From Parvibaculum sp. (GTDB taxonomy: Bacteria; Pseudomonadota; Alphaproteobacteria; Parvibaculales; Parvibaculaceae), in the NCBI RefSeq assembly GCF_019635935.1, contig NZ_JAHBYN010000001.1, positions 1,795,501 to 1,859,500 on the forward strand: DNA of 64,000 nucleotides, in the 5' to 3' direction. Numbering within the stretch: position 1 is the first letter of the stretch; each line of letters opens with the position of its first letter. A program made the position numbers and the translations under genes. The notes under the pieces were generated by a model, which saw only the letters and a program-made list of their open reading frames with translations, made no database searches and was not told the DNA's origin. Below, piece by piece: positions 910 through 10,892 of this stretch.

Positions 910-2027
910 GCGCGTCCTATCTGGCACAAGCGCAGCGCGTCGTCGTCAAGATCGGTTCGGCGCTGCTGACCGACGCCGAAACCGGCAAGCTCAACCGCAC
1001 CTGGCTGCAGGCGCTGGTCGAAGACGTGGCGCGGATGCGCGCGCGCGGGCAGGAAATGCTGATCGTCTCCTCGGGCGCCATCGCGCTCGGACGCCGCGCG
1101 CTGAAGCTCGCCCCCGGCAAGCTGAAACTCGAGGAGAGCCAGGCCGCCGCGGCCGTCGGCCAGATCGGCCTTGCTCATGCCTTTCAGGAAATGCTGTCGG
1201 CCTATGGTCATTCCTGCGCGCAAATTCTGGTGACGCTGGAAGACACCGAGGAGCGCCGCCGCTATCTGAATGCGCGCTCGACCATCTCGACGCTGCTGAA
1301 GCTCGGCGCGGTGCCCGTCATCAACGAGAACGACACGGTGGCGACGACCGAAATCCGCTACGGCGACAACGACCGCCTCGCCGCCCGCGTCGCCAGCATG
1401 ATGTCGGCCGACTGTCTGGTGCTGCTGTCGGATGTCGACGGCCTCTACACCGCCCCGCCCCATCTGACCGGCGCAACGCATCTGCCGGAGGTCGCGGAGA
1501 TCACGCCCGAGATCGAGGCGATGGCCGGCGGCGCCGCCAGCGAGTTTTCGCGCGGCGGCATGAAAACGAAACTGGCCGCCGCCCGCATCGCCACCGATGG
1601 CGGCGCGCGCATGGCGATCGCCAATGGTCACGGGCTGCATCCCCTGAAGGCGATCGAGGATGGCGCGCGCTGCACATGGTTCGCCGCCCATTCCACGCCC
1701 TATGCGGCGCGCAAACGCTGGATCTCGGGCTCGCTGAAAAGTCTCGGCGCGCTTGTCATCGATGACGGCGCGGTCAAGGCGCTGACGCAGGGACGCAGCC
1801 TGCTGCCGGCCGGCGTCGCCACCGTCGAGGGCATCTTCGGACGCGGCGACGCGGTGAGCGTGCGCGACAAAGCGGGCCACGAAATCGCCAGCGGCCTCGT
1901 CGCCTATTCAAGCGACGATGCGCGGCGCATTGCCGGACATTCGAGCCACGAAATCGAGGAACTGCTCGGCTATTCGGGCCGCGCCGAAATGATCCATCGC
2001 GACGATCTGGTGCTGAAGAAGGGCTGA
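906..2027 (+). CDS. proB: glutamate 5-kinase
   Basis: Phosphorylates L-glutamate to gamma-glutamyl phosphate, the first step of proline synthesis. The 373-residue product has the normal two-domain layout. An amino-acid kinase domain carries [10 protein letters not shown] near the N-terminus, [19 protein letters not shown] in the middle and [15 protein letters not shown] at its end. A C-terminal PUA domain follows (about residues 275-360). The start overlaps the obgE stop by 4 bases. proA lies 73 bp downstream with a GAGGGGGAG ribosome site before its ATG. In most relatives ProB is feedback-inhibited by proline through the kinase domain; the sequence does not show whether that holds here. Confidence 0.97.
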
Positions 2028-2100
2028 GCCCGTTGAAACCGGCGCATCCGCCTGAGATACTTCGTACAAGGCGCGTGCAGTTAACGAGGGGGAGAACCCC

Positions 2101-3390
2101 ATGACGATTGTGAAGATGAACGCGGAACGGCAGGACGTGACGGCGCTGATGGCCGAAATCGGCCGCGCCGCGCGCGCCGCCGCGACAAAACTCGCGCATA
2201 CGCCGACCAAGCAGAAGGATGCGGCGCTGCTCGCCGCCGCCATGGCCATGCGCGCCAATGTCGACGACATTCTGAACGCCAATGCCGAGGATGTGGCGGA
2301 CGCGGTGAAGAACGGTCTCACACCGGCGATGATCGACCGGCTGACGCTCGATGTGAAGCGCGTGGAGGCCATTGCCCGCGCGCTCGAGGACATCGCCGCC
2401 CTGCCCGATCCCGTCGGCACGAAGATCGCCGAATGGGATCGCCCCAACGGTCTGCATATCGAGCGCGTACGCACGCCGCTCGGCGTTGTCGGCATCATCT
2501 ATGAGAGCCGCCCCAACGTGACGGCGGATGCGGGCGCACTGTGCCTGAAATCCGGCAATGCGGCGATCCTGCGCGGCGGCTCGGAAGCGCTGCGGTCGAG
2601 CAAGGCGATCCATGCCTCGCTGATCGAGGGCATTGTCGCCTCGAACCTGCCCGAAGCGTCGATCCAGCTCGTGCCGGTTGCCGACCGCGCCGCCGTCGGC
2701 GAAATGCTGCGCGGCCTCGACGGCAATCTCGACGTGATCGTGCCGCGCGGCGGCAAGAGCCTTGTCGCGCGCGTACAGGACGAAGCGCGCGTGCCGGTCT
2801 TCGCGCATCTCGAAGGCATCTGCCATGTCTATGTCGACGGCGACGCCGATCTCGACATGGCGCGCAACATCGTCCTCAATTCGAAGCTGCGCCGCACCGG
2901 CATTTGCGGTGCGGCCGAAACGCTGCTGGTCGACGAAGCCTGCGCGGCGACACATCTGAAACCGCTGGTCGAGGCGCTGATCGCCGAGGGCTGCGAAGTG
3001 CGCGGCGACACAGCGGCGCAAGCGGTGGACACCCGTGTCAAACCGGCAACGGAAGAAGACTGGCGCACCGAATATCTCGACGCGATCATTTCCGTGCGCG
3101 TCGTGAAAGGCGTCGATGCCGCGATGGCGCATATCGTCGAATACGGTTCGGCGCATACCGAGGCGATCGTGACCGGCAATGCGGCGACCGCCGCGCGGTT
3201 CCTGAGCGAACTCGACAGCGCGATATTGCTGCACAACGCCTCGACGCAATTTGCCGATGGCGGCGAGTTCGGCATGGGCGCCGAAATCGGCATCGCCACC
3301 GGCAAGTTTCATGCGCGCGGGCCCGTCGGCGTCGAACAGTTGACGAGCTTCAAATATGCGGTGCGCGGCAACGGCCAGGTGCGGCCCTGA
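2101..3390 (+). CDS. proA: gamma-glutamyl phosphate reductase
   Basis: NADPH-dependent reduction of gamma-glutamyl phosphate to glutamate-5-semialdehyde, the second proline step. It belongs to the aldehyde dehydrogenase superfamily. The 429 residues match the usual family length. The ProA signature is present: [35 protein letters not shown], and the nucleophile in [17 protein letters not shown]. The conserved C-terminal block [20 protein letters not shown] is intact. The start at 2101 has a purine-rich GAGGGGGAGAACCCC leader. proA is followed after 13 bp by nadD, so the obgE-to-rlmH genes look like one transcription unit. Confidence 0.97.
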
Positions 3391-3403
3391 CGGATATCCG
3401 CAC

Positions 3404-4039
3404 ATGACGCGCCGCCGCGAGCTGCTGACGCCGAGAATGAAAGTCGGCCTGCTCGGCGGTTCCTTCAATCCTGCGCATGAGGGCCATCTGCATCTGACGC
3501 GGATGTGTTTGCGCGCGCTCGGGCTCGACCGCGTCTGGTGGCTGGTCTCGCCGCAAAATCCGTTGAAACCCGAAACGGGCATGGCGCCCTTCGCCGACCG
3601 CTTCGCCTCGGCGCAGGCGATGGCGCGCGACCCGCGCATCTGCGTCAGCGACATCGAGACGCGGCTCGGCACGCGCTACACCGCCGACACGCTGACCGCC
3701 TTGCGCGCGCGCCACCCGGATGTCCGCTTCGTCTGGCTGATGGGCGCCGACAACATGATCGATCTGCCGCGCTGGCGGCGCTGGCGCGACATCGCGGGCG
3801 GCGTGCCGATTGCCGTGTACCCGAGGCCCGGCTTCACGTTGAAGGCGCGCCTGTCGCCGGCCGCCGCGGCGCTGCGCCCTCACTTGCTCGACGCGAGCGA
3901 CGGCGCCCTGCTGGCGGACGCCGCGCCGCCGGCGCTGATATTCCTTGAAGGCCCGGAAAGCCGCCATTCGGCGACCGAAATCCGCAGCCGCGGCGGCTGG
4001 CCAGCCGCCGGCACGATCGCCCTGTCGCGGAACCTTTAA
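3404..4039 (+). CDS. nadD: nicotinate-nucleotide adenylyltransferase
   Basis: Transfers AMP from ATP to nicotinate mononucleotide to make deamido-NAD in NAD biosynthesis. The nucleotidyltransferase motif GLLGGSFNPAHEGHLHL lies near the N-terminus and the second motif SATEIRSR near the C-terminus, as in the HIGH/ISSTxxR pattern of the family. The 3404 ATG gives 211 residues, with 11 residues before the conserved core. An ATG at 3437 directly before KVGLLGG is also possible. The gene follows proA by 13 bp. Family assignment is firm; the start is moderately sure. Confidence 0.95.
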   Translation: MTRRRELLTPRMKVGLLGGSFNPAHEGHLHLTRMCLRALGLDRVWWLVSPQNPLKPETGMAPFADRFASAQAMARDPRICVSDIETRLGTRYTADTLTALRARHPDVRFVWLMGADNMIDLPRWRRWRDIAGGVPIAVYPRPGFTLKARLSPAAAALRPHLLDASDGALLADAAPPALIFLEGPESRHSATEIRSRGGWPAAGTIALSRNL

Positions 4040-4751: not shown

Positions 4752-5234
4752 ATGCGCGTTCAGATCTGTGCCGTCGGCCGATTGCGCGCCGGACCGGAAA
4801 AACAACTCATCGACGATTACCTGTCGCGCCTCGAAGTCGCCGGCCGCGCCATCGGCATCACGAGCGCGCCGCTTGTCGAGGTCGAGGAAAAGCGGCGGCT
4901 CGACGGGGCGGCCCTGAAGACGCGCGAGGGCGAACTCCTGCGCGCCGCGGCGGCGAAAGGCGCGACCATTGTGGCGCTCGACGAACGCGGCCGCGCCGAA
5001 CCGAGCGAGGCCTTCGCAAAACGTCTCGGCGACTGGCGCGACGCAGGCGCCGGCGATGTCGCCTTCCTGATCGGCGGCGCCGGCGGCCTCGCACCCGAGA
5101 TCCGCGAAAGCGCCACCCATGTCATGGCTTTCGGTCCGGCGACCTGGCCGCATATGCTGGTCCGCGCGATGCTGGCCGAACAGCTCTATCGTGCCGTAAC
5201 GATACTCTCGGGCCACCCCTATCATCGCGCCTGA
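4752..5234 (+). CDS. rlmH: 23S rRNA (pseudouridine-1915-N3)-methyltransferase
   Basis: SPOUT-family methyltransferase that modifies pseudouridine 1915 in helix 69 of 23S rRNA. The 160-residue product has the usual length and the expected motifs: [33 protein letters not shown] (AdoMet knot), [22 protein letters not shown] and the end [18 protein letters not shown] ribosome site lies just before the ATG. It sits directly after rsfS, matching the common rsfS-rlmH pairing in bacteria. Confidence 0.97.
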
Positions 5235-5346: not shown

Positions 5347-6912
5347 ATGGGTTCAATGAACGGCGCACGACCCCTTGTTCTGGCTCTGCTGGATGGCTGG
5401 GGCGTCCGGGCGGAACGCGAGGCGAATGCCATCGCGCTGGCCAGGACGCCGATCTACGACCGGCTGGCCGCGACCGCGCCGCGCGCGCTTCTGGGCGCGT
5501 CGGGCGAAGCGATCGGCATTGCGCCCGGCCGCGCCGCCTATCCGCAAGCCGCCTATGCGACACTCGGCGCCGGCCGTCCCGTTGCGCAGACGGCGACCGC
5601 CATCGCGAGCATGCTGCACGACAAGGGCGCCGCGAGCCTTGCCGCGCACCCGGCGCTGCAGCGCCTTGTCGCCCGCGTCCGCCCGCTTGGCGGCGCCATT
5701 CACCTGATCGGCATGGTGACGCCTTCCGGCATCGCCGGACACCAGCACCACCTGGCGGTGCTGGCGGCGCTGTTGAGCCATGAAGGCGTCAGGGTCTGGG
5801 TCCATGCGGTGATGGACGGTCAGGACACACGGCCGCAAAGCGGCATCGAGCATCTGGCCGAATTTCTCGACGACATTGCCGGCGCCGAAAACGCCGGTCT
5901 TGCAAGCGTCATGGGGCGCGGCTACGGCTTCGACGGCGACACCGAACCGGCGGCGCTTGCCGAAGCCTGGCGCGTGCTCGCCGAGGCGGATGGCCCGCGA
6001 ACCGAATATCCGACGGCCTATCTCGACCAGTGCTACCGCAAGGGGCTGAACGACGACCGCATACCGCCCGCGCCGACATCCGGTTATCGCGGCATCAGAC
6101 AGGACGATGCGCTGCTGCTGGTGAACCTGCAGCCGAACGATGCGCTGGCCTTGATGGGTGCGCTTGTCGATCCGGTGGCGGCGGGTTTTGCCCAGACCGC
6201 GCCGGCGCTCTGCGGCGTCTGCTCGCTTGTCGCGCTCGACGCGCCCACGGGCGACGCGGTCGAGGCGCTCTACGCGAGCACAACTTTCGGCGCGAGCTTC
6301 GGCGAGGCCCTGTCGCAGGGCGGCCGGACGCAGCTTGTGCTGACCGAAACGGCGGCCGAGAGCAATCTCTGGAATTTCGCGCGCGGCGGCCATGCGGCGC
6401 TCCGCGCCGGCGAAAATGTGCTTGTCGCCGAAACGCCGGCGCGCATCGAAAAGCGGCCCGAACTTGCCTCGGCCGCGCTGACATCCGAGGTGCTTGCCGC
6501 ATTGAAGGCCGGCGACCGCGACATCATCACCGTCGAATTCGCCAATGCGGCGCTGCTCGGCCGCACCGGCAACATGCGCGCGACCGTCGCCGCCATCGAG
6601 GCGGTCGACAAATGCCTTGGAAAGATCGCCGCGCAAATCGAAAAGCGCGGCGGAACGCTGGTGCTTTGCGGCACCTATGGCAAGGCCGAGTTGATGATCG
6701 ATCCGGAGACCGGCGGGCCCTGGCGCGCAACGACGACGTCGGATGTTCCCTTCGTGCTGGCCGGCGAACAACGGGGCCTGACATTGACGAACGGTACGCT
6801 TGCCGACGTCGCGCCGACGCTGCTTCGGCTTCTGGGTCTGGAGGCGCCGCGCGAAATGACCGGACGTCCGCTTCTCGCCGCGGCCGAAGCGCCGAGCCGG
6901 ATCAGTGCCTGA
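5347..6912 (+). CDS. degenerate iPGM-family protein, probable pseudoenzyme
   Basis: Length (521) and overall order follow cofactor-independent phosphoglycerate mutase (GpmI), and DGWG (residues 16-19), GAGR, HLIGM, the MDGQDT segment and FAN are recognisable. The catalytic centre is not. The phosphoserine motif NSEVGH is replaced around residues 63-68 by AAYPQA. FANPDMVGHTG has become FANAALLGRTG (398-408), TADHGNAE has become CGTYGKAE (441-448), the HTTNPVP histidine is lost (461-468), and the substrate Arg motif FRADR reads LQPND (261-265). So the metal ligands and nucleophile are gone while the frame stays open. It overlaps the EnvC-like gene by 8 bp. Catalysis as a mutase looks impossible; a structural or regulatory role is inference. 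A true PGM must exist elsewhere. Confidence 0.85.
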   Translation: MGSMNGARPLVLALLDGWGVRAEREANAIALARTPIYDRLAATAPRALLGASGEAIGIAPGRAAYPQAAYATLGAGRPVAQTATAIASMLHDKGAASLAAHPALQRLVARVRPLGGAIHLIGMVTPSGIAGHQHHLAVLAALLSHEGVRVWVHAVMDGQDTRPQSGIEHLAEFLDDIAGAENAGLASVMGRGYGFDGDTEPAALAEAWRVLAEADGPRTEYPTAYLDQCYRKGLNDDRIPPAPTSGYRGIRQDDALLLVNLQPNDALALMGALVDPVAAGFAQTAPALCGVCSLVALDAPTGDAVEALYASTTFGASFGEALSQGGRTQLVLTETAAESNLWNFARGGHAALRAGENVLVAETPARIEKRPELASAALTSEVLAALKAGDRDIITVEFANAALLGRTGNMRATVAAIEAVDKCLGKIAAQIEKRGGTLVLCGTYGKAELMIDPETGGPWRATTTSDVPFVLAGEQRGLTLTNGTLADVAPTLLRLLGLEAPREMTGRPLLAAAEAPSRISA

Positions 6913-8242
6913 CATCGCACGCAACCCCTCGAAAGCGCTGCTGCTGGCGGCGGCGCTGGCGGCGGGGTGGGTTCACGGCGCATATGCCGAAACGGCCGAA
7001 CCCGGCGAACTCGATGCGCTGCAGCGGCAGATCGAAACAAGCCTCGAAAAGCAGAAGGCGCTCGAAGCGCAATCGGAAGCCGCACGCCGCGAGGCCGAAG
7101 AAATACGCAACGCGCTGATCGAATCGGCGGCAAACGTGCAGCGGCGCGAAGCGGATGTTTCGGCGTCGGAAGACCGCTTGCAGGGCCTGCGTGCCGCCGA
7201 GGCGGACTTGACCGTGCAGCTTGAACGCCGGCGCGCGGCGATGGCCGAACTATTGGCGGCGCTGACAAGCCTCGACCGGCAGCCGCCGCCGGCGCTCGCC
7301 GTGCGCCCCGACGACGCGCTGGCCTCGGCGCGAAGCGCGATGCTGCTGGGCGCCGCCGTTCCCGAACTCCAGGCCGAAGCCGCCGAATTACGCCTGCGCC
7401 TCGAGGAACTGGCGCGTCTGCGCGGCGAAATCCTCGCCGAACGCCAGACGCTGGGCGAATCGAAAACCCTGCTCGAAAGCGAAAGGCTGTCGCTCGAAGC
7501 GCTGCTCGCGCGCAAGCTTGAACAGCAGGCAAAGCTCAGCGCGGCTTTCGAGAGCGAACAGGCGCGCGCCGAGCGGCTGTCGCGGCAGGCGACCGACCTG
7601 ACCGACCTGATTGCCCGGCTCGAAGCCGGCGCCGCCGCGCGCCTGCCGATGCACCGGCCCGACGAGCGCCCCGAACCGGCACGGGAAGCGCCGCCGCCCG
7701 CATCCGCCGACACGGCGGAGACCCGCATGGCCGTGCTGAGGCCGCCCTCCGGGCCGCCCGCCATGCCCTCCTCGCGGCTGTTTTCGGACGCCAGGGGACT
7801 GATCCGCCCGCCGGCGGCCGGCCGGATCGTCCAGCGCTACGGCGCGCCCGACGGGCTGGGGGGCCAGACCCAGGGATTGACCATCGAGACCCGCGCGGAT
7901 GCACACATTATTGCCCCTTTTGACGGTAGAATCTCTTACGCAGGGCCGTTTCGCCGCTATGGCCAACTCTTGATCATATCGGTCGGCGAGGGCTACCATG
8001 TGCTGTTGGCGGGCATGACGAGAATCGATGGCGCCGTGGGCCAGAGCGTTCTTGCCGGCGAACCTGTCGGCACGATGGGTTCATCGCCCTCCGGCGACGA
8101 TCCGGCCGTGCGAAACGACAAGACGGGGCGGGACGGAATACCCGGCCGCGGCCCCGAGCTCTATATCGAAATCCGGAAAGACGGCAGCCCGATCGATCCC
8201 CGACCCTGGCTGACGATGAGTGACAAGAAGGCAAGTGGTTAA
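6905..8242 (+). CDS. EnvC-like murein hydrolase activator, coiled coil plus degenerate LytM domain
   Basis: Probable periplasmic activator of cell-wall amidases at division. A GTG start at 6905 gives 445 residues: an N-terminal signal-like hydrophobic stretch (LLLAAALAAGWVHGAYA), a long Glu/Ala/Arg-rich coiled coil (about 30-240), a Pro/Ala-rich linker, and a C-terminal LytM (M23) fold (about 300-435). The zinc ligands of active M23 enzymes are missing: the HxxxD region reads GLTIETRADAHIIAP and the last His motif reads ELYIEIRKDG. This is the EnvC pattern, where the LytM domain activates amidases rather than cutting. It is directly followed by ctpA, a common alphaproteobacterial arrangement. 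Confidence 0.88.
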   Translation: MPDIARNPSKALLLAAALAAGWVHGAYAETAEPGELDALQRQIETSLEKQKALEAQSEAARREAEEIRNALIESAANVQRREADVSASEDRLQGLRAAEADLTVQLERRRAAMAELLAALTSLDRQPPPALAVRPDDALASARSAMLLGAAVPELQAEAAELRLRLEELARLRGEILAERQTLGESKTLLESERLSLEALLARKLEQQAKLSAAFESEQARAERLSRQATDLTDLIARLEAGAAARLPMHRPDERPEPAREAPPPASADTAETRMAVLRPPSGPPAMPSSRLFSDARGLIRPPAAGRIVQRYGAPDGLGGQTQGLTIETRADAHIIAPFDGRISYAGPFRRYGQLLIISVGEGYHVLLAGMTRIDGAVGQSVLAGEPVGTMGSSPSGDDPAVRNDKTGRDGIPGRGPELYIEIRKDGSPIDPRPWLTMSDKKASG

Positions 8243-9577
8243 ATGAAAAAGTCCGTCTTCGCCGGCTTCGCCGTCGGCATGTGCCTGTCCGTCGGAGCCC
8301 TGATGGCGTTCCAGCCCGGGGGGCTGAATTCGGCGGCCTATGCCAACGACCAGAACACCTATCGCCAGCTGAACCTGTTCGGCGATGTCTTCGAACGCGT
8401 ACGCGCCGACTATGTCGAGCCGACGGACGATTCGAAACTGGTCGAAAACGCCATCAACGGCATGCTGACCTCGCTCGACCCGCATTCGAGCTACATGACG
8501 CCCAAGACCTTCCGCGACATGCAGGTGCAGACACGCGGCGAATTCGGCGGCCTCGGCATCGAGGTGACGATGGAGAACGGTGTCGTCAAGGTGGTGACGC
8601 CGATCGACGACACGCCCGCCAGCCGCGCCGGCATGCGCCCCAACGACTACATCACCCATATCGACGGCACGGCGATCCTCGGCATGACGCTGAGCGACGC
8701 GGTCGACAAGATGCGCGGACCGTCGAACTCGGCGGTGACGCTCACCGTGATCCGCAAGGGTGTCGACGAGCCTTTCGAGGTAAAGCTGACGCGTGCCATC
8801 ATCACCATCAAGTCGGTGCGCTACAATCGCGAGGGCGACATCGGCTACATCCGCATCACCTCCTTCAACGAGCAGACCTCCGACCTGCTGAACAAGGCGA
8901 TCTCCGATCTTGCAAAGCAGATCGGCAATACGCGCCTGAAGGGCTACATCATCGACATGCGCAACAATCCGGGCGGCCTGCTCGACCAGGCGATCTCGGT
9001 CAGCGACGACTTCATCGACGGCGGCGAAATCGTTTCGACGCGCGGCCGCCACGCCGAGGACACGCAACGCTACAATGCGCGCTCCGGCGACATCACACGC
9101 GGCAAGCCGATCATCGTTCTCGTCAATGGCGGCTCGGCCAGCGCTTCGGAAATCGTTGCCGGCGCATTGCAGGACCACCGCCGCGCGACAGTTCTCGGCA
9201 CACGCTCCTTCGGCAAGGGCTCCGTGCAGACGATCATTCCGCTCGGCTCCGACGGCGCACTGCGCCTGACGACGGCGCGCTACTACACGCCCGCCGGCCG
9301 CTCGATCCAGGCCAAGGGCATCGAACCCGACATCATCGTCACGCAGACGGATCCCGACGAGAAATCCGGCAAAAAGCAGGCAGGCACCATCGGCGAAGCA
9401 GCGCTGCCCGGCCATCTCGCAAACGAGGAAGGCGACGAGCAGAGCGGCTCCGACAGCTTCGTGCCCAAGGACAAGGCCGAGGACCGGCAACTTCTCTACG
9501 CCATCGACCTGATGAACGGCGTTCGCAAGGATGCCGCCTATATCGGCGGGACCACATCGAGCGCCATGGCGAACTGA
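8243..9577 (+). CDS. ctpA: S41 family carboxy-terminal processing protease
   Basis: Periplasmic serine protease that trims C-termini of envelope proteins. It has 444 residues with an N-terminal signal anchor (about 1-32). A PDZ domain (about 85-170) contains GGLGIEVTMENGVVKVVTP. The S41 catalytic domain follows, with the Ser in VNGGSASASEIVAGAL and the Lys in GTRSFGKGSVQT, the expected Ser-Lys dyad, and then YYTPAGRSIQAKGIEPD. The ATG follows the upstream stop with no gap, so translation is probably coupled to the EnvC-like gene. That fits joint work on peptidoglycan remodelling. Confidence 0.95.
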   Translation: MKKSVFAGFAVGMCLSVGALMAFQPGGLNSAAYANDQNTYRQLNLFGDVFERVRADYVEPTDDSKLVENAINGMLTSLDPHSSYMTPKTFRDMQVQTRGEFGGLGIEVTMENGVVKVVTPIDDTPASRAGMRPNDYITHIDGTAILGMTLSDAVDKMRGPSNSAVTLTVIRKGVDEPFEVKLTRAIITIKSVRYNREGDIGYIRITSFNEQTSDLLNKAISDLAKQIGNTRLKGYIIDMRNNPGGLLDQAISVSDDFIDGGEIVSTRGRHAEDTQRYNARSGDITRGKPIIVLVNGGSASASEIVAGALQDHRRATVLGTRSFGKGSVQTIIPLGSDGALRLTTARYYTPAGRSIQAKGIEPDIIVTQTDPDEKSGKKQAGTIGEAALPGHLANEEGDEQSGSDSFVPKDKAEDRQLLYAIDLMNGVRKDAAYIGGTTSSAMAN

Positions 9578-9641: not shown

Positions 9642-10892
9642 ATGGGTGCGAAGATAGCGGCGAAAGGCGTTGGCCCGATCGGGGGCGGGCAAGCGCAGGA
9701 GGAAGGTCGGCGCCGCTTCGGCGCGCTGTCCGTCGCCGCTCTCCTTGTTGCGCTCGTCTATGGCGGCACGCTTGCATGGCTGCTTCTTTCCGACAACCGC
9801 CTTGCCGGCGAACCCGTCATACATCTCGCACTGGCGGAGGATGACCTCGCCGAAAGCGAAACGCCGCTCGCGGCGCCCGGACCCGACGGCGCGGATATTG
9901 CGGATGCAACACCGGATCGGCCGGACGCAGACGAACCGAGCGCCGACGAACAGGCGCTGCTCGATGCGGCGCGGCGGATCGGCGAAGGCAATGAAATCGC
10001 GCCCGAAGATGTTGCCGCGCAGGTGCGCATTGTCGGCGCCGAAAGCGTTTCGGGCGGGGAAGAGACGACACCAAACGAGAAGCCCGCGATACGCGCGCTG
10101 CCGCCCGTGCCCGATCCGGCGCTCGTCGAGAAGACGCCGGAAGGTCTGCTGCCTCAGATCGCAGCCGACGGCCGCACACCCCGCGACGTCTATGCGCGGC
10201 CCGTGCCGCCCGGCACGCCGGCCACGCGGCGCATCGCGCTGGTCGTCAGCGGCATGGGCATCAGCGAAAGCGCGACGGCGCATGCAATCGAAACGCTGCC
10301 GCCGGAGGTGACGCTTTCCTTTGCGCCCTACGGTCCCGGCCTGCAGGACTGGATCGCGAAAGCGCGCGCGGCGGGCCATGAAGTGCTGCTCGAATTGCCG
10401 ATGGAACCGTTCGGCTATCCGCAGAACGATCCCGGTCCCTACACATTGCTGACATCGCTTTCGGCGGAGGAAAATCTCGCGCGCCTCGAATGGTTGATGA
10501 GCCGCTTCACCGGTTATGCCGGCGTGATGAACTATCAGGGCGCGCGCTTCACGACATCGGCATCGACCGTCGAAGCGGTGATGGCCGCCCTGCAAAAGCG
10601 CGGTCTCCTTTATGTCGACAACGGCGCCTCGGCGCGCAGCCTCGCACCGCAACTGGCGCGCGATGCCGGCATGCCGGCGGTGCAGGCGACACGCATCGTC
10701 GACCCGGTGCAGAACCCGCAGGTCATCGCGACATCGCTCGAAGTGCTGGAAGAGACGGCCGCAAGCGCGGCGGTCGCCATCGGCGTCGCATCGGGCTTTC
10801 CGGTGACGGTGGACGCGCTGGCGGCATGGGCCGCGACGCTTGACGAAAAGAATTTCGTGCTGGTGCCCGTAAGCGCCACGGCGCAGAAGTAA
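9642..10892 (+). CDS. divergent polysaccharide deacetylase (YibQ-like), membrane anchored
   Basis: 416 residues with one N-terminal membrane segment (about 28-48: SVAALLVALVYGGTLAWLLL), a low-complexity acidic linker to about residue 175, then a divergent polysaccharide deacetylase domain (PF04748 type). Domain landmarks are PPEVTLSFAPYG, GHEVLLELPMEPFGYP, NDPGPYTLLTS and a C-terminal FVLVPVSA. The first strand reads ALVVSGMGIS where YibQ-type proteins usually have IDDLG, so the acidic metal-ligand pair is absent. Activity as a deacetylase is therefore doubtful. Its place after envC-ctpA suggests an envelope role. rppH follows by 24 bp. Confidence 0.85.
   Translation: MGAKIAAKGVGPIGGGQAQEEGRRRFGALSVAALLVALVYGGTLAWLLLSDNRLAGEPVIHLALAEDDLAESETPLAAPGPDGADIADATPDRPDADEPSADEQALLDAARRIGEGNEIAPEDVAAQVRIVGAESVSGGEETTPNEKPAIRALPPVPDPALVEKTPEGLLPQIAADGRTPRDVYARPVPPGTPATRRIALVVSGMGISESATAHAIETLPPEVTLSFAPYGPGLQDWIAKARAAGHEVLLELPMEPFGYPQNDPGPYTLLTSLSAEENLARLEWLMSRFTGYAGVMNYQGARFTTSASTVEAVMAALQKRGLLYVDNGASARSLAPQLARDAGMPAVQATRIVDPVQNPQVIATSLEVLEETAASAAVAIGVASGFPVTVDALAAWAATLDEKNFVLVPVSATAQK

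Follow-up and report, generated by a model that had tools for sequence, protein, structure and literature searches.

A full-length phosphoglycerate mutase homologue without most of its active site, kept beside envC in Parvibaculum and its relatives

Introduction

Structures of the cofactor-independent phosphoglycerate mutase (iPGM) contain two metal sites, one formed by Asp/His/His and the other by Asp/Ser/Asp/His. The phosphoglycerate is held by His123, residues 153–154 and four arginines, of which two are Arg185 and Arg191 (PMC5382265). The gene, gpmM, forms a conserved cluster with envC and sddA; a link of wall hydrolysis to energy metabolism has been suggested on this basis, and tests of it were called for (PMC12440217). 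According to the same authors, a dead SddA homologue, ATU2773, is retained in the envC operon. In the part of the survey by Foster et al. (2010) that concerns it, P. lavamentivorans is listed with both dPGM and iPGM, and a short dPGM resembling that of S. pombe is noted (PMC2964296).

The position of gpmI beside envC in many Proteobacteria is an open question, on which a lineage with a dead GpmI provides a natural experiment. Here, we describe such a lineage, starting from a window of 64,000 nucleotides of Parvibaculum sp. (contig NZ_JAHBYN010000001.1, positions 1,795,501 to 1,859,500). Coordinates refer to this window unless a contig is named, and the window features lie on the plus strand. 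In the open-access papers searched, we found no earlier report of a dead iPGM, nor any partner or phenotype described for one.

Results and discussion

Sequence match and predicted structure

The open reading frame at 5347..6912 encodes 521 residues from ATG to TGA with no internal stop. In the profile search, it covered positions 2–504 of the 504 in TIGR01307 (E 2e-93), with a score of 313.6 bits that missed the curated equivalog cut-off of 330.65. Both PF06415 and PF01676 were matched, meaning that the metalloenzyme and iPGM_N domains are present in full length. Solved iPGMs were also matched over their whole length (5VPU, E 1e-72; 1O99/1EJJ, E 2e-69), in agreement with the first-pass annotation, which had called the protein a full-length phosphoglycerate mutase homologue. 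We refer to it as the pseudo-iPGM, considering the profile matches, the changed active site, the dN/dS values and the predicted fold together. The search of the same genome returned no second gpmI-like gene, leaving this frame as the sole one found.

The AlphaFold model has the iPGM fold, with pLDDT of 87.9 and pTM of 0.84, values obtained from an input alignment that included intact enzymes, which favours this fold and is silent on dynamics. The best structure matches of the model were 1EJJ, 1O99 and 1O98, with TM scores of 0.89–0.92. No signal peptide was seen, and the pseudo-iPGM should be cytosolic, with EnvC, CtpA and the deacetylase encoded downstream expected in the periplasm. Direct contact between the two sides is, in consequence, unlikely.

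The active site

We scored fifteen catalytic or substrate-contacting positions in an alignment to intact iPGMs, using the numbering of the Geobacillus stearothermophilus enzyme. Lys336 was counted among the substrate-contacting positions. Twelve of the fifteen were changed in the window protein, and Asp16, Asp160 and Arg191 were retained. Among the losses are the phosphoserine, all but one of the six other metal ligands and the majority of the residues that bind phosphoglycerate. From the set comprising the nucleophile and both metal sites (D12, S62, D403, H407, D444, H445, H462), the equivalent of D12 alone was kept; from the phosphoglycerate-binding set (H123, R153, D154, R185, R191, R261, R264, K336), those of D154 and R185 alone.

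Following the alignment along the chain, Asp16 (5392..5394) corresponds to the metal ligand Asp12, and is replaced by Gln in the second dead lineage described below. Pro66 (5542..5544) took the place of the nucleophile Ser62, and Ala130 (5734..5736) that of His123, which binds phosphoglycerate (PMC5382265). The pair Gln159-Asp160 (5821..5826) corresponds to Arg153, changed, and Asp154, retained. Arg191 (5917..5919), equivalent to Arg185, was preserved in all copies readable at this place, and the former Arg191 became Gly197 (5935..5937). Within the RADR/RPDR motif (Gln262 to Asp265, 6130..6141), Arg261 and Arg264 were substituted by Gln262 and Asp265. Ala337 (6355..6357) stood for Lys336. The metal ligands Asp403 and His407 were replaced by Ala402 and Arg406 (6550..6564; FANPDMVGH read FANAALLGR), Asp444 and His445 by Thr443 and Tyr444 (6673..6678; TADHGNAE read CGTYGKAE), and His462 by Thr462 (6730..6732).

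The statement made from the sequence at the outset, that every catalytic landmark is changed, holds for all the motifs that were listed with it, and goes too far by the three retained residues. Judged from the alignment, iPGM chemistry is not expected, because the serine and all metal ligands but one are gone.

Spread and single origin of the dead form

All 31 copies read in Parvibaculaceae, from four genera, were dead, with 2–7 of the 15 active-site residues retained. They came from 20 Parvibaculum genomes, one of which had two copies, and from three further genera; a few copies were cut by contig ends. A second dead group was found in another order of the class, in a genus (g112, of the f108 lineage) that may be Pyruvatibacter. 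Its four copies, from four genomes, kept R153, D154 and R185 alone and were gapped in the alignment through the serine (S62) and D444-H445 segments. Some 50 further iPGMs, drawn from the class, the phylum and other phyla, had 15/15, among them those with the lowest scores. By this residue count (2–7 of 15 in 35/35 dead copies, 15 of 15 in the others and no intermediates), the loss of the active site is far beyond chance. Further dead cases were sought among the weak-scoring iPGMs of the phylum and rejected, as all had 15/15. In the phylum sample of 397 genomes, 227 were GpmI-positive, and 226 of these had a match above the TIGR01307 cut-off.

The old-site columns varied across the dead family, with P/A/M/G/V/L/T at S62 and T/P/N/G/A/Y at H462. 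The equivalents of R191 and R261 were lost in most Parvibaculum copies and partly retained in the sister genera.

With the catalytic columns removed, a single branch of the tree split the intact from the dead proteins with 100/100 support. Moreover, the two dead groups have derived residues in common, such as E172, D253, R434 and R406. On both counts, a separate inactivation of the second lineage is not favoured, with the caveat that the branch of the dead clade is long (1.19), which leaves some room for long-branch attraction. In a tree of the neighbouring genes, the f108 genus stood close to Parvibaculaceae, at modest support. A single inactivation event, by which the Parvibaculum group lost most of the active site already in its ancestor, is well supported. 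The gene is cleanly gone from its usual place in the complete genome (G027) of genus g2 of Parvibaculaceae. In the neighbouring-gene tree, g2 falls inside the family, so this absence is a later loss, and at least one relative can do without the pseudo-iPGM.

GpmA as the working mutase

An intact gpmA was found in the same genome at C1:2044025-2044654 (-), with the RHG, S.L.RA, ERDYG and HGN motifs. The proposed check of the genome for another mutase gene thus returned an intact gpmA and no second gpmI. GpmA scored above the cut-off in every Parvibaculaceae genome of the set with at least 90% completeness, and all copies read carried the expected motifs. Nearly all genomes with dead GpmI have an intact cofactor-dependent GpmA, and class genomes with an intact gpmI mostly have no gpmA. 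Nine of the 289 genomes of the class sample had both a gpmA and a gpmI match, and in seven of the nine GpmI was dead. The two exceptions (G150, G244) have an intact iPGM beside gpmA, in fragmented assemblies. Copies of gpmA from the two dead groups formed one cluster with a support of 94. One assembly (G011, locus L111) had a second gpmA of a long type, unlike the short type of the genus; contamination is possible, since the assembly is 6% contaminated.

That the glycolytic step in the dead-GpmI lineage is carried by a monomeric, cofactor-dependent GpmA of the S. pombe type is well supported. The dPGM noted for P. lavamentivorans in the relevant part of Foster et al. agrees with this census (PMC2964296). 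As predicted from gene content and motifs, Parvibaculum has only one working mutase type. The annotation of these genomes is corrected accordingly, as they lack the two working phosphoglycerate mutase types that similarity surveys suggest.

Selection and shifted constraint

The pairwise dN/dS of the dead gene (Nei-Gojobori) was 0.12–0.25 within Parvibaculum, 0.05–0.21 in the second group, and 0.14–0.25 between the window gene and its relatives. These values were close to those of envC (0.03–0.25) and nadD, and above those of ctpA and proA. Every complete dead copy had a full-length open frame, and no stops were found in the copies read. Synonymous divergence was large in several pairs, meaning that a frame free of selection should have been interrupted by now. 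The possibility that we are looking at a decaying pseudogene whose loss is pending can draw on the complete loss in genus g2, but dN/dS is far under 1, the synonymous divergence is large and the frames are unbroken, which makes it hardly credible, and a neutral pseudogene is rejected by dN/dS.

The lost catalytic columns were more variable than the rest of the protein, with mean pairwise identity of 0.31 in the Parvibaculaceae copies against 0.51 overall. Among 114 other columns that are invariant in intact iPGMs, 71 had the same majority residue in the dead family. Compared with working iPGMs, the dead family showed stronger conservation in two segments of the transferase domain: residues 131–155 (LSHEG.xVWVHA; 5737..5811; block-permutation p about 0.0004–0.001) and 166–190 (5842..5916; p about 0.0003–0.0007). 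A third segment, 416–440 (6592..6666), showed the same more weakly (p about 0.01). Residues 56–85 and 326–355 were less conserved than in intact iPGMs. These results appear to show a move of constraint from the catalytic loops to transferase-domain segments, which fits a changed function; they are an indication only, since the test treats column blocks as exchangeable and the compared sets differ in phylogeny.

With its catalytic residues lost and purifying selection acting on the protein, the gene product is, as far as the coding sequences tell, a pseudoenzyme. According to the first-pass annotation, the gene has preserved its scaffold, its frame and its place in the operon, and selection retains a protein without mutase chemistry; dN/dS of 0.05–0.25 and the absence of stops bear this out at the level of sequence. 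The comparison with relatives that it proposed gave the same picture, as the dead state is common to Parvibaculaceae and the neighbouring order, with dN/dS below 1.

The gene block around the pseudo-iPGM

Upstream lies rlmH (4752..5234), with an orthologue at the same place in relatives. The EnvC-like protein with a LytM domain (6905..8242; PF01551, E 5e-17; NF008644 EnvC, E 5e-10) begins with a GTG at 6905, before the pseudo-iPGM frame has ended. The overlap reported earlier was thus real, amounting to 8 nt, and is similar in several relatives. Gene order further assigns to the block a ctpA-like S41 peptidase (8243..9577), which is followed by a divergent polysaccharide deacetylase of the SddA/YibQ type (9642..10892). 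DD and HLPM are zinc-site motifs of such deacetylases. Motif comparison showed that the window protein lacks them, having VSGMG where DD and ELPM where HLPM would be expected (motif roles from PMC12440217). The class relatives examined were alike in this respect, suggesting that the zinc motifs were lost earlier than the iPGM site.

The order rlmH-gpmI-envC-ctpA-pda-rppH was the same with dead and with intact gpmI of the class. The overlap with envC is consequently ancestral and gives no evidence of a new link, so the connection to wall remodelling that had been drawn from it is not supported. In several GpmA lineages, gpmI was absent at exactly this place and envC adjoined rlmH. Joint loss gave no firm association of the pseudo-iPGM with the deacetylase: both are absent at L172 (G027, genus g2) and L185 (G053), but other lineages lack only one of them.

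Several loci depart from this arrangement. One assembly (G006; L199 and L200) contained two diverged proA-nadD-rsfS-rlmH-pseudo-iPGM-envC-ctpA blocks, possibly from mixed strains. At L194 (G016), proA was split between two frames at about 1472–3127, by a frameshift or an assembly error. A tandem pair of ctpA-like genes lay 3' of envC at L203 (G040; 966–3670), and about 3 kb of extra sequence separated nadD from rsfS in the f108 genus and genus g4 (L175, L176, L177, L179).

Possible roles of the retained protein

A dead active site in a protein that selection has kept makes a new, non-catalytic role probable. We somewhat favour an iPGM-derived pseudoenzyme that was freed by GpmA and now acts by binding. 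GpmA would carry the glycolytic step, and gpmI, once freed, would have had its active site dismantled a single time in the lineage. The constraint that seems to have moved onto the transferase-domain surfaces 131–155 and 166–190 and onto the helix 416–440 suggests that these are the probable contact surfaces for another protein or a small ligand. The pseudo-iPGM may then have a regulatory or scaffolding role in the cytosol, being produced from one cluster with EnvC, CtpA and the deacetylase. A wall link is possible. The far-reaching form of this proposal, in which a lineage-wide, non-catalytic cytosolic regulator ties central carbon metabolism to the remodelling of the septal wall (EnvC, CtpA and the dead SddA-like deacetylase) and the gpmI-envC association across Proteobacteria rests on binding and not on mutase activity, is rather unlikely.

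The protein could instead sense 3-phosphoglycerate, as the first-pass annotation had suggested, or some other small acid, with a glycerate-like ligand in the remaining transferase-domain pocket and signalling by closure of the two domains. The predicted two-domain fold would allow this, and the equivalents of D154 and R185, which contact phosphoglycerate (PMC5382265), are retained in all readable copies of both dead lineages. However, these two are the only such contacts left in the window protein and, being invariant in all iPGMs, may be structural; Parvibaculum lacks the serine and the metal ligands as well as H123, R191, R264 and K336, and no stable ligand site is evident, as R191 and R261 are gone from most Parvibaculum copies and persist in part in the sister genera. 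The sensor proposal is weakened by this, and we regard it as a rather unlikely account too. New chemistry on the old scaffold, either metal-independent or using metal in another way, would fit the kept fold, the low dN/dS and the wide occurrence of some new residues (R406, D253, R434). Nevertheless, the old site holds no polar residue set that is consistent across the dead family, its columns are more variable than average, and the second lineage is gapped through the S62 and D444-H445 segments. The search for alternative catalytic residues of another enzyme of the alkaline-phosphatase superfamily, named beforehand as what would overturn the reading of a dead site, likewise gave no consistent set, the former ligand columns being variable. 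A different enzyme is thus improbable.

Equally improbable is a translational leader, that is, a gene retained only because envC starts in its 3' end, so that loss of the frame would lower EnvC. The 8-nt overlap and its counterparts in relatives point in this direction, and termination-reinitiation coupling has been proposed for the envC-sddA pair of E. coli (PMC12440217). Yet coupling needs an open frame and not an amino-acid sequence, whereas dN/dS is 0.05–0.25 along the protein, the most constrained segments are far from the 3' end, and the GpmA lineages without gpmI still have envC beside rlmH. The persistence of both neighbourhood and protein in two orders after the loss of catalysis means that a non-catalytic role can be tested without disturbing glycolysis.

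Comparison with known systems

The pseudo-iPGM resembles iPGM (GpmI/GpmM; TIGR01307) in length, two-domain fold, full-length sequence match and gene order beside envC, and differs from it in 12 of 15 active-site residues, the score below the cut-off and the presence of GpmA in the genome. With phosphopentomutase and other members of the PF01676 metalloenzyme superfamily it shares the superfamily fold, at weak TM scores of 0.34–0.39; the similarity is far lower, and those enzymes need metal ligands that are absent here. ATU2773, the SddA/YibQ homologue without zinc ligands, is likewise catalytically dead and retained in this conserved cluster, but it is another gene, encodes a periplasmic deacetylase and has no sequence relation to iPGM (PMC12440217). 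P. lavamentivorans of Foster et al. belongs to the same genus, and the iPGM of that survey is most likely the orthologue of the window gene; the survey worked by similarity threshold, and its relevant part is silent on the loss of the active site (PMC2964296).
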